From: a virus
DNA: 20,236 nt
Direction: 5' to 3' (one strand)
IMG/VR virus record: IMGVR_UViG_3300025141_001009
Span: 1 to 20,236 of that record
Shown in pieces: positions 2,555 through 8,405 of the stretch. How positions within the stretch are numbered: position 1 is the first letter of the stretch; each line of letters begins with the position of its first letter. Under the pieces are notes generated by a model that was not told the DNA's origin, did no database searches, and saw nothing but the letters and a program-made list of their open reading frames with translations. Both the position numbers and the translations under genes were made by a program.

Positions 2555-3211
2555 ATGAACTTTATATGTGCCACAGTTGAGCTACGACATTTGGGGGATA
2601 GCGTGCAAGCCTATGGGTTGGATTATTGCAGTGCTGACGCTGTTGTGCCCGGTAACGGCAGTGCTAGTGAGGTTCGATTCAGGCTTCTCTGCTACGAACG
2701 CCAAGGTCCTAAGCTCCAGGCCTTCCTTGATTGGAAGTCAGGCACCCGCGCCTTGATTACTGGTAACATTGTATTTAGCGATGACACAGCACAACCTTTG
2801 GATATCATTGTTACAACGATTGAGACTGCAGTACCGCAAAATATGTACTGCAATCAGGTTGTTCTTGGGAATGCGTTCTTCGGTTCAGATGAAATCAAAG
2901 AACGTAAGAACGGTCAAGTAGCCGTTAAAATTGGAACAACGTTAGACAATAGCGACGTTACAACGTGGCTATTTATGGAGACACATGAAAGCAGAAAGGA
3001 GAAACTTAATGGCAGAATTCGGAAGGGTCGCCCAATATGCGTCACTGGATATCTACGAGAATATCGTAAAGACGACAGCGACAGTCCTTACCGGGCTATC
3101 TGCGCGAATGACTTCACTACGCGGAAGGATAGAGAGCAAAGAAAGTCAGGACCGCAATCATCGGGAACTGCTTCGGGCTATACGGAGGTGGACCCGACCC
3201 CGGACTACTGA
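2555..3211 (+). CDS. ssb: Single-stranded DNA-binding protein with two OB-fold-like halves
   Basis: Probably coats single-stranded DNA at the phage replication fork. Residues about 100-188 resemble bacterial SSB: NQVVLGN start, an NGQVAVKIGT strand, TTWLFMETHES, a KGRPICVTGYL strand and a final YRAICANDF strand. The first 95 residues have a similar strand pattern (RFRLLCYER, SGTRALITGNIVF), suggesting a second OB fold. A low-complexity linker (about 189-207) leads to GYTEVDPTPDY, ending Pro-Asp-Tyr, in the place of the partner-binding tip of other SSBs. GxAxGYTEVDP also occurs inside the primase-helicase encoded downstream. The gene follows a hairpin and precedes a strong terminator, so it ends the first + strand unit. 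Confidence 0.75.
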   Translation: MNFICATVELRHLGDSVQAYGLDYCSADAVVPGNGSASEVRFRLLCYERQGPKLQAFLDWKSGTRALITGNIVFSDDTAQPLDIIVTTIETAVPQNMYCNQVVLGNAFFGSDEIKERKNGQVAVKIGTTLDNSDVTTWLFMETHESRKEKLNGRIRKGRPICVTGYLREYRKDDSDSPYRAICANDFTTRKDREQRKSGPQSSGTASGYTEVDPTPDY

Positions 3212-3317: not shown

Positions 3318-3350
3318 TTAGTGTCAACATTATTTATACTATGACACTAA
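3318..3350 (+). promoter_or_regulatory. 9-bp inverted repeat spanning the start codon, with a TATACT box between the arms
   Basis: TTAGTGTCA (3318-3326) and TGACACTAA (3342-3350) are exact reverse complements 15 bases apart. The second arm overlaps the ATG at 3341-3343. TATACT (3335-3340), a good -10 hexamer, sits directly before the ATG, and no Shine-Dalgarno sequence is visible. It could be an operator overlapping a promoter, with a leaderless or very short-leader mRNA, or an RNA hairpin hiding the start. The repeat is plain in the sequence; the role is inferred. Confidence 0.5.
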
Positions 3351-4078
3351 CTGTTATTCCGCCGGAACTCACTGCGGAGAAAGATAAAATTGAAACTAAA
3401 GAACCACAACCCTATTGGAAACCAAGCTCACTTAAGGATGGAGAATCAGAAGAATTCCGTTTACTCGGATGTTACGAAACGGGGCACGCCATCGTTGGAT
3501 GGCAGTATGCCTCTGAGGTTCTGGATGATAAATCTGGGGATCTTAGGTTTAACGGCTTTGTGGTTACTCGTAGCCATCCTGGTTCTCCCGCAGATATTGC
3601 CAGAGAAACCGACTGGTCCAAGCCTGATCGGCCCAAGATTGACGGAAGTTTCGTCAAGCCACGTAGGTTCCTCGCCTGGGTTGCCACCTCTGCTTCACGT
3701 GGAAGACTAGAAGTTCTATTCATTGAACAGAAATCTCTACGTGAAATGCTCACTGAGATCCTGCAAGAGGATGAAGACTATACCTGGACTGAAGAGGGGC
3801 TAGCAAATTTCTCAATCAAAATCTCTCGTAAGGGACAGGGACTAGAAACTTCTTACTCAATCCTTCCGAAGGTACGTGCTGTACCTGAGAAGATTAAAAA
3901 GGAATGGGCTAAGCAGCAGGACACTATCTGGTTACCTAACTTCTTTGAAGGTAAAGATCCCTTTGAAGGTAAGACAACTGACGAGAAAGGTCTACCTGCT
4001 GGTGGTGTGGACAAGAGAGGAGCCACTGTAATGCCTAAAACTACTAAGAAAAAAACTGACGACGACGCTGAATTCTAA
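3341..4078 (+). CDS. Probable second ssDNA-binding protein with acidic C-terminal tail
   Basis: 245 aa. I do not recognise the family firmly. The architecture is that of a phage ssDNA-binding protein: a beta-rich core (about 20-185, e.g. FRLLGCYETGHAIVGWQY, RRFLAWVATSASRGRLEVLFI) with basic and aromatic residues, a flexible Lys/Gly-rich segment (about 200-238, MPKTTKKK), then TDDDAEF. Acidic tails ending in an aromatic residue are the partner-docking tips of T7 gp2.5 and bacterial SSB. It opens the replication unit and overlaps the next gene by one base (TAATG). It could instead be a recombination mediator. If it is an SSB, the phage encodes two, since the 2555 gene also looks like one. Confidence 0.5.
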   Translation: MTLTVIPPELTAEKDKIETKEPQPYWKPSSLKDGESEEFRLLGCYETGHAIVGWQYASEVLDDKSGDLRFNGFVVTRSHPGSPADIARETDWSKPDRPKIDGSFVKPRRFLAWVATSASRGRLEVLFIEQKSLREMLTEILQEDEDYTWTEEGLANFSIKISRKGQGLETSYSILPKVRAVPEKIKKEWAKQQDTIWLPNFFEGKDPFEGKTTDEKGLPAGGVDKRGATVMPKTTKKKTDDDAEF

Positions 4079-4428
4079 TGCCTAACTCACTAGAAAATTT
4101 GCCTCCTGAAATGCAGGCACGTATCCAGTCAATGATTGCTGGAGCTAACCCTAACGCTGCACCACCACAAGAGGAGCAGCAACAAGCAGCACTTGCACAG
4201 AGACCACTGTCACTGATGGATCACGTCATTCAACTGCGGCAGGAGAACCAGTTCCTGCGTCAGCAAGTTGAGCAATTGACACATCAGATGGCAGCTTCTG
4301 CTCAAGTAACCGAAGCGGTAGGGAATGCGGTGGGACAGCTGTACCAGATGTTTTGCCAGCAAACCGAAACTACAAGTTACAGCTCAAATTTTGAAACGAC
4401 AAGGCCGTCGCTAGAAGATGAGTTCTGA
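4078..4428 (+). CDS. Coiled-coil protein of the replication operon, unknown function
   Basis: 116 aa. The N-terminal third is Pro/Gln/Ala-rich (NPNAAPPQEEQQQAAL). Residues about 48-72 carry leucine-spaced heptads (VIQLRQENQFLRQQVEQL) predicting a coiled coil, followed by an amphipathic helix. The end is TRPSLEDEF, another acidic tail closing with Phe, like the gene before it. It overlaps its neighbours by 1 and 11 bases, so it is co-translated between the candidate SSB and the exonuclease. It could be an oligomerising adaptor for replication or recombination proteins. I do not know a named family. Confidence 0.65.
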   Translation: MPNSLENLPPEMQARIQSMIAGANPNAAPPQEEQQQAALAQRPLSLMDHVIQLRQENQFLRQQVEQLTHQMAASAQVTEAVGNAVGQLYQMFCQQTETTSYSSNFETTRPSLEDEF

Positions 4429-5191
4429 TAAGCCCTACCGTATTCAGACACCTTCTGGATACCGCAAATATCTTTGCAGCGGGCTCTACATGCCTTCAGT
4501 TACCACTGTCTTAAGTGCGACTGAGACTGAAAAGTCAAAGGCAGGACTACGTACATGGCAACAGAACAACCCTGGTGCACTGGAGGCTGCATCAACGAGG
4601 GGTTCTGCTATCCATCTTTGTTGCGAGAATCACATCAGAGGGTTGCCAATCGGCTGCCCCGATGAGTATAGTGGGTTCTGGAATGGCATGAGTCAGTATC
4701 TCGACTGGTTCGATGTCATCCACTGGTCGGAACGCCCACTGCGCAAGGACTGGTATCACTTAAGGAGTGATGATAAAGAGGTGGCATACGTGTGGTCTAC
4801 GGAGCATATGTATGCAGGGTGTCCTGATTTGATTGGAGAGATTGGTGGTGTTAAGGTCATCGCTGACTTTAAGACTTCCAATGGTCCCTATATGAATTGC
4901 TTCCCTGACAGGGGAGACCGAATGGGCTTTGGTGGCTTCCGTAAATACCAAAAGTGTGCACAACAAATGGCTGCTTATCGTTTAGCACTGGCTGAACGTA
5001 CAGGTTATAAATGTGACGTAGCACTAATAATAGTATCCACGGAAGAACTTACCCAAGGTATATTTATAGACGGGGATCAGATGGACTTAGCGGAAAGTCG
5101 TTTCCTTAAACGAGCTAAACAATTTCACGATACGGAAACAACGAATGAAGATAAAGTTAGCAGTTCACAAGAGCTGCAAAAACAAGACTAA
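4418..5191 (+). CDS. PD-(D/E)XK exonuclease (RecB/Cas4-like)
   Basis: Probably a DNA exonuclease for recombination, end processing or host DNA breakdown. Motifs in order: RGSAIH (61-66) as the helical His/Arg motif, GCPDLIGEI (134-142) with metal ligand Asp137, VIADFKTS (147-154) giving the D150-x-K152 core, and QQMAAYRLAL (182-191) as the trailing Gln/Tyr helix of the RecB family. There are six Cys (20, 68, 69, 80, 135, 161, plus 180 in KYQKC), but no clear four-Cys Fe-S pattern as in Cas4. Length of 257 aa is normal for phage members. It overlaps the coiled-coil gene by 11 bases and the primase-helicase gene by 47. Confidence 0.8.
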   Translation: MSSDKPYRIQTPSGYRKYLCSGLYMPSVTTVLSATETEKSKAGLRTWQQNNPGALEAASTRGSAIHLCCENHIRGLPIGCPDEYSGFWNGMSQYLDWFDVIHWSERPLRKDWYHLRSDDKEVAYVWSTEHMYAGCPDLIGEIGGVKVIADFKTSNGPYMNCFPDRGDRMGFGGFRKYQKCAQQMAAYRLALAERTGYKCDVALIIVSTEELTQGIFIDGDQMDLAESRFLKRAKQFHDTETTNEDKVSSSQELQKQD

Positions 5192-7364
5192 CCCGCAGAA
5201 AGTTGCAACTGGTTGGTCGAACATCGTTGAAGATTTAGATTGGTTAGAAGGATGGGTGCGTGCTGGCTACGGCTGGTGCTCCACCCATTTTTTAAACCGT
5301 CATCGTAAATCTGAGAACGCAAGTGGCAGCAATATGATTGTTGTTGACATTGATGGTGACACAACACTAGATGCTTTCTGGGATACTCCCACAGCTCAAG
5401 CTTGGTGTGCTGGAACTTATACCTCTGCTAGCCATAGCTCTGAGGAGCATAGGTTCAGAGCCTTGTTCCCACTAGCTGTCCCGCTTACTACTATCAATCA
5501 GCACAAGGGTGCTTACTGGTTGATCGCTGATCGATTAGTTGCTGAACTTGGTCTCAAGGAACTTAAAGATAACTGCGGTCAAAAGCCTGAGCGACTTTGG
5601 TATGGCAATACTGAAGCAAGCTTTCAGTGGAACCCTGGTGCTGAAGTACCTAGCTTCCTGCTGGATCATATTGACTATGAAGAGCCAGTTGAATTTAACA
5701 AGAGCGATGTATCTGAGCAAGATATTGAACGCTGTCAGTGGCTGCTGCAGAACTTCCTACGGCCATCAGATGATGGTGAGTATGAAACGATGTATGTGCC
5801 GGTCATGGCTGCCTGTGCTGCCATAGGGACAGTGATGTTCGATGCATGGGTTGACTGGGTACTGAAAGGTCACCACGGTGAGAAGGAAGATAACATCCGT
5901 CCTTATAAATGGAAAGGTCTCGGTAACTACTCTGGACCTGCTAAGTTGTACTCACTTGCTAAGAAGCAGGATCCAAACTGGACAAGTAAGCTGCCATCTA
6001 ATCTAAGGTTTAGAGCTGCAGGTGCTGCCGTTGGATACACCGAAGTTGATCCACCAGTCAGCTTTGATGAAGTGATTGCAAACCACAAAGGAGAAGCTAT
6101 GGAGATTGAACCAGAACCCTTACCGGATAGTAAACAAGCTAAGACTAAGGGTAGACCTAAGCGTAACAGTGAAGCTGCTGCTAAAGAACGTGAGGAAGAT
6201 GTACGTAAAGTCAAAGAAGTACTATCTGATTTAAGACGTAACGAGCTGACAAGTCAGATTGAATACACTGATGCTCAAGGCAAAACCGTTGCGCTGCAAG
6301 GGAATGACCTTGAACTGATGACAACAAGGATGGCTTGTCAGAACGGTATCTTTATACCTGAAGCACGTATGAAAACAGCTGTGCAATGGGCTGCAGCGCA
6401 AAATACTTACTGTCCTATCCGTCGCTTCCTTGATAACTGTTCAGCTAATGCTAAGCCCCACAAAGACTGGGACCGTATTGGCGAAGTCTTCCTTGGGAAT
6501 AAGCACCAGATTGCCACCATTGCTATGCAACGGATGATGATTGGTGCTGTTGCTAGAGCATTCACCCCTGGTTGTTCCATGTCCTGGCTACCTATTCTTG
6601 TAGGTGCACAGGGTGTAGGTAAGTCACAGTTCAGTCGTAGCCTTGTTCCCGAAAAGTTATTTGCAGAGGTGACTACACCGCTGGAAACTTTGATGAAGGA
6701 ACAGTACAGGCTTCACGTTGCTTGGCTTCTAGAGCTTCCTGAGATTGATCACTTCTTCCAACTGAAGAACATTGAGAACTTCAAGAACCTAGTAACTACA
6801 AGGTGTGATGAGATTAGGAGACCTTACGCTACCTTACCAGAGAGACTGCCTAGAAGGTTCGTTATGATTGGAACTACCAATCGTAACCAGTTCCTTGTAG
6901 ACAGCACGGGTAATCGTAGGTTTGTTCCACTAGAAGTTGGTGCTGGGTTTGAAATACCCTGGCGACGATTAGCAGAGGAACGTGATAGTATATGGGCAGC
7001 TGCAGTTCAGGCTTACCGTAATGGTGCGCAGTATGAATTTGACAGCGGTGAGATTGCTGCAATTTCTGAATACATTCAGGAGTTCGGTGACCCAGACCCA
7101 TGGCTAGATAAGGTTGCTGGTTACATTGCTATCCGAGAGGAAGTAACTGTTGCAGAGATACTTACTAATGCACTTGAGCTTGACCCTAGATCACAGAGCA
7201 CACGTGAAAGTAGACGAGTAGTTAACGTCCTTCAGTCATTAAGTTGGCGACGACTTAACACTAGCCGTAAGGATCCAACTACAGGTAAGTCCAAGTCAAT
7301 ACGGATTTGGCAACGACCTAAGGATGATCCCCTTCCTGACGACCACATATTAAACGATTTCTAA
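5145..7364 (+). CDS. Primase-helicase: AEP-type primase fused to VirE-family ATPase
   Basis: Primes and unwinds DNA at the fork. The N-terminal part fits an archaeo-eukaryotic-type primase: VDIDGD (67-72) with the D-x-D metal pair, TSASHSSEEHRFR (93-105) with the S-x-H motif, and a possible third ligand Asp142. Residues about 192-280 look like a primase C-terminal helical domain. A charged linker (300-360) follows. The ATPase is VirE/SF3-like: Walker A GAQGVGKS (487-494), acidic Walker B stretch LLELPEID (528-535), sensor GTTNR (576-580), arginine motif GNRR (589-592). The linker contains GYTEVDP (297-303), also found at the SSB tail. The C-terminus is HILNDF, again acidic plus Phe. I chose ATG 5145 despite the 47-base overlap because the next in-frame Met lies inside the primase core. 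T7-like cyanophages usually carry a gp4-type protein instead. Confidence 0.82.
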   Translation: MKIKLAVHKSCKNKTNPQKVATGWSNIVEDLDWLEGWVRAGYGWCSTHFLNRHRKSENASGSNMIVVDIDGDTTLDAFWDTPTAQAWCAGTYTSASHSSEEHRFRALFPLAVPLTTINQHKGAYWLIADRLVAELGLKELKDNCGQKPERLWYGNTEASFQWNPGAEVPSFLLDHIDYEEPVEFNKSDVSEQDIERCQWLLQNFLRPSDDGEYETMYVPVMAACAAIGTVMFDAWVDWVLKGHHGEKEDNIRPYKWKGLGNYSGPAKLYSLAKKQDPNWTSKLPSNLRFRAAGAAVGYTEVDPPVSFDEVIANHKGEAMEIEPEPLPDSKQAKTKGRPKRNSEAAAKEREEDVRKVKEVLSDLRRNELTSQIEYTDAQGKTVALQGNDLELMTTRMACQNGIFIPEARMKTAVQWAAAQNTYCPIRRFLDNCSANAKPHKDWDRIGEVFLGNKHQIATIAMQRMMIGAVARAFTPGCSMSWLPILVGAQGVGKSQFSRSLVPEKLFAEVTTPLETLMKEQYRLHVAWLLELPEIDHFFQLKNIENFKNLVTTRCDEIRRPYATLPERLPRRFVMIGTTNRNQFLVDSTGNRRFVPLEVGAGFEIPWRRLAEERDSIWAAAVQAYRNGAQYEFDSGEIAAISEYIQEFGDPDPWLDKVAGYIAIREEVTVAEILTNALELDPRSQSTRESRRVVNVLQSLSWRRLNTSRKDPTTGKSKSIRIWQRPKDDPLPDDHILNDF

Positions 7365-7610: not shown

Positions 7611-8405
7611 ATGGCTGAAGCACAACCAAGTAAGAAGGTGGGAGGCCATGCATTTGGCCGCCGCGTTCATCAAATATCTAACACTGCCGAGGAAGGTGAG
7701 CTGTGTATCTATACAGGACACGCAATCGGTAGGTTCTCTGCACACTCGATGCGGTTTGATAGTCATCAAGCCTGCACCAGATGTGTAGCTGCTGCTAGAG
7801 AAGGACGGATGTCACTAGACATTGACCGTCTGATGAAGAAGAACCGTAGGAGAGCACTGAAATTTTGGAGCCAAGTTGATATTGGTGCGCCAGATGAATG
7901 CTGGCAATGGCAGGGGTGCATAAATAACAGAACAAAACAACCCCAATTTGCCTGGAGACGCATTGGAATTTCCACGTCCACGCAGCATCATCCCCAACGA
8001 GTTGCTATGTGGTTTAGCTGGGGTGACCTTGGTTACACTGGCGTTAAGACCACTTGTGGTGACAAGTATTGCGTCAACCCTTTCCACCTAATTCCACAAC
8101 GGATTGGTGTATTTGTTGACCAAGAGAGCTACTTAGATAGCTTTGAACTTGCCTGCCAACTACAAACACTTAAGCAGGAAGTAGCAGAGTATGTAATGGA
8201 GGAAGCTTTGAAGGAAGAGATGAAGGATGACTCCAGCATCATTGATGAGCACGAAGCTTTAGTCCTTGACCCTGATACTGACTACAAAGCTAAGTTTGAA
8301 GCGGTCATGGAAGCCATGATGAGTGGTACTCACATCAGCACATTAGAAGCTGAAGACCCTGCTTTAAATAGAAACCCACCAGATAACGAGGAGTCAAATG
8401 AATAA
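7611..8405 (+). CDS. HNH-endonuclease-like protein with altered active-site motif and Cys/His N-terminus
   Basis: 264 aa. The middle resembles phage HNH (HNH_3-type) nucleases: CWQWQG (97-102), HPQRVAMWFSWGDL (127-140), then TTCGDKYCVNPFHL (147-160). Family members usually have a His before the Cys (cHxCxNxxCxNPxHL); here that place is Thr (TTC), while the Cys, Asn-Pro and final His remain. The N-terminal CIYTGH and CTRC may form a small zinc site. About 90 C-terminal residues are acidic and helical. It could be a structural DNA-binding relative or a nuclease using other ligands. Two bases separate it from the preceding gene. Confidence 0.6.
   Translation: MAEAQPSKKVGGHAFGRRVHQISNTAEEGELCIYTGHAIGRFSAHSMRFDSHQACTRCVAAAREGRMSLDIDRLMKKNRRRALKFWSQVDIGAPDECWQWQGCINNRTKQPQFAWRRIGISTSTQHHPQRVAMWFSWGDLGYTGVKTTCGDKYCVNPFHLIPQRIGVFVDQESYLDSFELACQLQTLKQEVAEYVMEEALKEEMKDDSSIIDEHEALVLDPDTDYKAKFEAVMEAMMSGTHISTLEAEDPALNRNPPDNEESNE

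Follow-up and report, generated by a model that had tools for sequence, protein, structure and literature searches.

A short peptide shared by the SSB tail and the primase-helicase linker in a putative cyanophage clade

Two replication proteins of a viral clade carry the same short peptide, which is located at the C-terminus of a single-stranded DNA-binding protein (SSB) and again in the linker of a primase-helicase. The sequences of relatives confirm that this motif is real, clade-specific, maintained at the protein level, and common to both proteins. We consider AxGYx[E/Q]xDPxP[DN][YF] most likely to be a short linear motif for docking that is present twice in one replisome, wherein both copies would engage one putative pocket. 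The first copy lies at the free end of a predicted disordered SSB tail and the second lies inside a predicted disordered segment of the primase-helicase. If both bind the same pocket, then the two proteins would compete for, or share, a single hub at the replication fork. For example, single-stranded DNA might be handed from SSB to primase, or several hub molecules might be arranged around the helicase ring.

The DNA analyzed, hereafter called the window, is an IMG/VR record of 20,236 bases whose relevant features are collected in Table 1. A 70-kb relative (G006, 78% identity) encodes the photosystem II D1 protein (psbA), a family that 8 of the 11 compared contigs carry, and its terminase shares 54.6% identity with the Synechococcus phage S-EIV1 enzyme. 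The window polymerase is nearest to those of T7-like cyanophages (~45%). The combination of a D1 gene, an S-EIV1-like terminase, and a polymerase of this type suggests a cyanophage clade that has no isolate among the records searched. S-EIV1 itself carries no relative of the window SSB or primase, and GYx[EQ]xD is found nowhere in it.

Table 1. Positions of the motif copies and associated features in the window
Feature	Position	Strand	Basis or remarks
Double-OB single-stranded DNA-binding protein, 218 aa, motif copy 1 at C-terminus	2555..3211	+	AlphaFold, Foldseek, VIA, PDB profile
Motif copy 1, GTASGYTEVDP	3164..3196	+	SSB residues 204-214, ORF 2555-3211
Extended motif to SSB C-terminus, GTASGYTEVDPTPDY	3164..3208	+	SSB residues 204-218
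Second SSB-like protein, acidic end ..DDDAEF	3341..4078	+	PHROG 1192 SSB, weak, E 0.0033
Probable coiled-coil protein, end ..SLEDEF	4078..4428	+	Weak bZIP-like Pfam matches below cut-off
Primase-helicase, 739 aa	5145..7364	+	N4 gp43-related N-terminus, predicted disordered linker, VapE-type helicase C-terminus
Motif copy 2, GAAVGYTEVDP	6021..6053	+	Primase-helicase residues 293-303, ORF 5145-7364
Copy 2 region aligning with whole SSB tail, Phe-ended	6021..6065	+	Residues 293-307; column composition
Second conserved linker element, EPLPD	6114..6128	+	Residues 324-328; E324 and P325 in 90/90, P327 in 88/90
AT-hook-like (presumed) KGRPKR in linker	6147..6164	+	Residues 335-340; G336, R337 and P338 in 90/90
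Primase-helicase C-terminal tail, HILNDF	7344..7361	+	Aromatic end in 114/115, [DE][FY] in 113/115

Two proteins and the peptide they share

The SSB. The preliminary description of this DNA had named the first protein an SSB, and its predicted fold backs that name even though the ORF has no Pfam or PHROG match. The AlphaFold model (pLDDT 82, from 54 sequences) has two OB folds, and the best full-length matches found with Foldseek are double-OB SSBs of Thermus and Deinococcus (rows 1-5; 2cwa at E 1.2e-07). These same SSBs score Z 13.1-13.6 by VIA (13.6 for a Thermus SSB), although an editosome OB protein ranks first there (Z 16.0), and a profile search of PDB sequences returned a single chain, named ESSB (2ynq, E 0.0011). 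The modelled structure thus supports assignment as an SSB with a bacterial-type double OB fold. Residues 196-218 are predicted to be disordered, with nearly all positions below pLDDT 50. The window encodes two SSB-like proteins side by side, the other being the product of the ORF at 3341-4078.

The primase-helicase. The protein matches Pfam PF05272 (E 5.4e-52; 176.8 bits, where the cut-off is 25), as expected for a VapE-type helicase domain, and it also matches PHROG helicase/primase families. Its residues 39-200 are 31% identical to the N4 gp43 primase, and its closest solved relative is PriRep1 (7pds). The full-length model is poor (pLDDT 67.7, pTM 0.38), and in it the linker at approximately residues 291-340 is predicted to be disordered and undocked, with nearly all positions below pLDDT 50. 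A few residues past the conserved EPLPD element of this linker sits the GRP core of a segment that we take to be AT-hook-like, which could possibly make a minor-groove DNA contact.

The peptide. Re-reading both loci reproduced the initial observation that GxAxGYTEVDP occurs in the SSB tail and in the primase-helicase linker, with every shared residue encoded by a different codon. The copies are identical at 9 of 11 residues and differ at all 9 shared codons, and their DNAs agree at 20 of 33 positions. A difference at all nine codons is mildly unusual given the codon usage of the window (P = 0.013), and it argues against a recent copy and for nothing beyond that. The shared element is longer than was previously recognized. 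GxAxGYxExDPxP[DN][YF] fits the SSB tail through its last residue and also fits many primase linkers, and the linker of the window reads DPPVSF in this region.

Within a single genome, such a match could be a coincidence. When the two proteins were shuffled with their composition kept, 1 of 3000 trials scored 9/11, and among the 435 pairs formed by 30 ORF translations of the window, the SSB and primase-helicase are the sole pair at 9, with a runner-up at 7. One of these translations, ORF 2371-2520, has no relative that we could find and may not be a gene. Shuffling the whole set reached 9 in 1 of 200 trials, and so the match is no more than suggestive (~0.005 after allowing for all pairs) when considered from this genome only. 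Conservation in relatives settles the question. Both copies are conserved across 90 primase and 54 SSB sequences, which leaves chance resemblance with virtually no probability, and we reject it.

Conservation of the motif and its confinement to the clade

The relatives first gathered comprised 46 SSB loci and the best 80 primase loci, a sample that leans toward close relatives, and the non-redundant alignments contain 54 SSB rows and 90 primase rows. Five residues of the SSB tail (G208, Y209, D213, P214, and P216) are invariant in all 54 sequences, A206 is retained in 52, and position 218 is always Tyr or Phe. E211 is present in 51 of 54, with the alignment placing D in the other three. The primase linker is just as constrained in its core, where A295, G297, and Y298 are found in 90/90 and E300 and D302 in 89/90. 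Columns beyond this core are more relaxed, with P at 305 in 40/90, a mixture at 306 (S32, N28, D26), and F at 307 in 72/90. For the cyanophage contigs, the SSB tail thus has the consensus AxGYxExDPxP[DE][YF]-COOH and the linker of the primase-helicase has AxGYTExD, and the neighboring linker columns are far more variable than the motif columns in both families.

Several synonymous forms occur at every fixed position, and the motif is encoded by 63 different DNA sequences in the SSB set and 106 in the primase set. Because synonymous codons vary freely at conserved positions, selection must act on the peptide, and we reject the alternative that it acts at the nucleic acid level (DNA or RNA). Thus, the proposal in the preliminary description of a short linear motif kept by protein-level selection holds up, since both copies are retained in relatives as conserved islands within predicted disordered segments. 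The contrary outcome it had named, namely loss of the motif from homologues or the consistent presence of just one copy, did not occur when checked over 63 pairs.

The motif is narrowly distributed. Across G001-G006 and G009-G012, ten contigs that range from 41 to 87 kb, GYxExD is found only in the SSB tail, the primase linker, and frames of 9 and 22 residues, with no occurrence in any further long ORF. A DNA pattern for the motif gave one or two matches in each of 20 records, and its reversed control gave 0. When a DNA pattern for the tail plus stop codon was searched for in 2.9 million IMG/VR viral contigs, it was found at 83 places, all in the SSB family of the window, and one of these (L250) reads in a shifted frame. 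In L250 and L174 (contig 3300050343_000177), the SSB gene is frame-shifted near its end and the tail is readable in the other frame. The looser pattern GxAxGYxExDP occurs in at least 119 IMG/VR stretches, and among the 80 listed, the new loci (L273-L333) are either clade primases or scattered ORFs that are alike in the motif only.

Genomes of 84,980 prokaryote species yielded a single match to the tail pattern, in a Methanolinea bin where the frame does not end at the motif, and this is a chance match. No SSB relatives from isolates were found in a phage collection at E 0.01 or in genome contigs, searches from which the records nearest to the window were possibly excluded. The motif also shows that an uncultured cyanophage group, which is absent from the isolate records searched, has replication wiring overlooked by domain annotation.

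A joint Glu-to-Gln change and candidates for the receptor

The most divergent relatives are informative. L313 has an SSB and a primase that are only 53% and 54% identical to those of the window, with an exonuclease and a 3341 ORF at 82%, and it keeps both copies (SSB ..TAVGYDEIDPTPEGY; primase ..TAVGYTEIDPEPIY). In L339 and L340, the SSB reads ..AGYGQIDPVPTGY and the primases read ..TGYSQCDPEPIF and ..TGYAQCDPEPNF, with Gln replacing Glu in both copies. Gln is also present in L341 and L354, for which the primase alone is available. Over the region that aligns with the SSB tail, the primase linkers of L313 and L339/L340 read ..DPEPIY, ..DPEPIF, and ..DPEPNF, and the SSB tails of these lineages end in EGY or TGY. 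L313, L339, and L340 form a mosaic lineage in which SSB, primase, ThyX, and RNR are strongly diverged, with the exonuclease and the 3341 ORF remaining ~80% identical.

Among 63 distinct SSB/primase pairs, 57 are Glu/Glu, two are Gln/Gln, and four are of other types, and Gln is found in no pair besides L339 and L340. Since these two genomes are related, the joint change represents a single evolutionary event. Even so, the co-switch in sequence is our best single pointer to a common receptor and hints that both copies might face the same pocket. The two lineages also constitute a natural specificity swap that should be useful for finding that receptor.

Pairing between the copies does not extend to every residue. 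Three of the four other pairs have SSB tails with a shifted or inserted spacer that are matched with primases of normal spacing, and the fourth has a degenerate primase copy. Degenerate linkers are of two types, GYEGDEPLPD in L349-L351, where the SSB tail is normal, and GYMKSAVDPSPD in L353, for which a scan for relatives returned no further members of the lineage. At the other variable positions, sharing a genome makes the two copies hardly, if at all, more similar than copies taken from different genomes, and no position is significant, with 1037 (x1), 351 (x2), 4921 (x3), and 297 (x4) of 5000 shuffles reaching the observed identity in a test that omitted 3 of the 63 pairs whose core is not ungapped. 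These mismatched spacers and unmatched positions argue against tight pairing at every residue.

A common origin could explain the resemblance without any shared partner if the segment was once copied between the genes and each copy was then kept for its own reason. A weak BLAST match in L313 fits this history, in that SSB residues 190-218 align over 34 columns with the linker of its own primase (41%; E ~6e-4 against two contigs). However, the same residues have been kept while synonymous codons varied freely, and Glu changed to Gln in both copies jointly. We therefore judge separate functions following shared ancestry to be improbable, and we consider the absence of any docking role equally improbable.

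The receptor is most likely phage-encoded because the motif is confined to the clade. A third replication protein is our leading candidate, although it carries somewhat less than half of our confidence. A total of 17 protein families were screened for sites that are invariant elsewhere yet changed in the Gln lineage. No such change is present in the 3341 ORF, the coil protein, either exonuclease, the deaminase-like ORF, o7372, o8457, o8797, o9462, or o9882m. HNH and polA each have one, and ThyX and the RNR subunits have several. The preliminary description had proposed docking on a common partner such as the polymerase or the exonuclease. The linear motif in both proteins agrees with its docking proposal, but neither named enzyme gains specific support, given that the exonucleases lack any lineage-specific change and polA has just one.

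The SSB core is one of two less probable candidates, which we rate equally as unlikely but credible. Under this arrangement, the SSB tail would dock on a neighboring SSB, and the primase linker would mimic the tail to be recruited to SSB-coated DNA. The SSB of L339, which is the only full-length SSB of the Gln lineage, carries three changes (Q101H, V103L, and N106S) at otherwise invariant or nearly invariant sites that are unchanged in its sister L313. All three map to the first OB2 strand, where the protein is most highly conserved. However, these changes come from one protein and may be unrelated to the motif, and primase, ThyX, and RNR likewise have lineage-specific changes.

Co-divergence bears on this candidate as well. 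Distance matrices were compared for nine families from 32 genomes (36 pairs) after the tail and linker were removed, and the SSB-primase pair has the highest partial correlation (0.685). Without L313 and L339, the value falls to 0.313 and the rank to 8 of 36, indicating that the co-divergence is mainly due to this lineage.

The primase-helicase itself is the other candidate of this rank. Its primase or helicase domain might be where the SSB tail docks, in which case the linker copy would serve as a built-in competitor or as a link between subunits of the ring. Ten primase sites changed in the Gln lineage, and three of these (Q146E, A346S, and V353F) have the consensus residue in L313. The Q-to-E substitution reverses the E-to-Q substitution of the motif, as might result from a swapped hydrogen-bond pair. 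Nevertheless, only one lineage is involved, its primase is strongly diverged such that other changes are expected, and the linker is undocked in the full model, poor as that model is. Taken together, the lineage changes and the co-divergence keep the SSB core and the primase-helicase as candidates beside a third protein.

Phage SSB tails can meet host partners, and the psbA gene carried by this clade implies a long association with cyanobacterial hosts. The preliminary description had accordingly listed a host factor among the possible partners. This suggestion fares poorly, since the tail pattern is missing from the bacterial and archaeal genomes searched except for the one chance match, and neither the two proteins nor the motif occurs in the related phage S-EIV1. 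We consider a host replication protein to be an improbable receptor.

Acidic-aromatic C-termini and comparison with known systems

The SSB tail is one of several aromatic C-termini encoded in the replication operon. After removal of rows whose reading frames are truncated or greatly extended, an aromatic residue ends the SSB in 67/67 sequences, the 3341 ORF product in 92/94, and the 4078 ORF product, probably a coiled-coil protein as judged from its sequence, in 95/96. The primase-helicase likewise has an aromatic end in 114/115 sequences (Table 1). More specifically, [DE][FY] ends 92 of 94 distinct 3341 ORF sequences and 95 of 96 from the 4078 ORF. Aromatic ends are also common in o7372 (105/134) and HNH (95/130). 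They are rare in polA (0/57), exonuclease (1/106), ThyX (1/65), and o8797 (0/117), and each remaining family counted has 0 to 10 (o9882m, 10/131). Among 67 families present in at least five of the 11 contigs, 58 have no [DE][FY]-ended member, with genes in these contigs called as longest ORFs and not by a gene finder.

These ends raise the possibility of a broader clade-specific peptide code. Such a code would consist of one interchangeable motif in SSB and primase plus a second, acidic-aromatic motif in neighboring proteins, and the Glu-to-Gln change would represent a reset of pocket specificity for both ligands. We offer this model only tentatively and think it rather doubtful.

Phage replisomes serve as models for the coordination of SSB, primase, helicase, and polymerase, and several known systems resemble the docking motif proposed here. 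The tip of the E. coli SSB C-terminus reads DDDIPF. Like this bacterial SSB-Ct, the window peptide is conserved, ends a disordered SSB tail, and places a final aromatic residue near acidic ones. It differs in that AxGYxExDPxPDY spans 13-15 residues and is repeated inside a second replication protein. In addition, the tail ends in DPxP[DE][YF] in 54/54 sequences and not in the acidic, Ile-Pro-Phe type of tip. Many SSB-interacting proteins are reported to dock on the bacterial C-terminal tip (PMC10164576).

In phage T7, the SSB and primase-helicase also end alike (gp2.5 ..DEDGDF; gp4A ..NDTDF), which is comparable to ..AEF for the 3341 ORF product and ..NDF for the primase in the window. Acidic C-termini with a terminal Phe or Tyr are thus found on both the SSB and the primase-helicase. 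Unlike in the T7 tail ends, where GYxExDP is absent, the window system has one copy at an internal site and up to six proteins with aromatic ends. According to a study of gp4, its tails dock on the polymerase at basic patches (PMC12593628), and by analogy, the acidic-aromatic tails of this operon may meet the polymerase as well.

The T4 gp32 LAST peptide occurs twice in a phage ssDNA-binding system, internal and exposed, and one copy is reported to take part in a proposed closed-open switch (PMC12893549). The window peptide is similar in that one short sequence is present as an internal and an exposed copy. LAST differs in being basic (KRKST), in having both copies within one protein, and in having a core copy that forms a DNA-binding patch. 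The window motif is acidic, has no Lys or Arg at conserved positions, and lacks the K/R-rich segment followed by S/T.

Clamp-binding motifs and PIP boxes provide a further precedent, wherein a short motif is reused by several replisome proteins that share one hub. The reuse is the same, but the window motif does not resemble the clamp-binding sequences QLxLF or QxxLxxFF. Thus, the kind of motif is already known from SSB-Ct, T7 tails, and clamp-binding peptides. In the literature searched, which was mostly titles and the starts of abstracts, we found no description of GYTEVDP or this motif, of its terminal-plus-internal arrangement, or of the co-switch. The SSB tail and primase linker copies offer a clean two-peptide system for studying competition and hand-off at the fork.

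Two additional families have ends that resemble known or newly described tails. HNH proteins (7611-8405 and relatives) end with [ND]P[TVSI]..[FY] in 44/130 sequences, often as [ND]PTxDF/Y, which resembles the end of the SSB tail. The window HNH has no such end. By sequence likeness, the HNH C-termini might represent a partial third copy of the motif. Finally, a 222-amino-acid family with no PHROG match is encoded upstream of the RNR genes (L141:13461-14129 in G006). It is Phe-ended in 8/8 contigs that have the family, with [DE]F in four of the eight, and one member ends in DDEELPF, which is similar to the tip of SSB.
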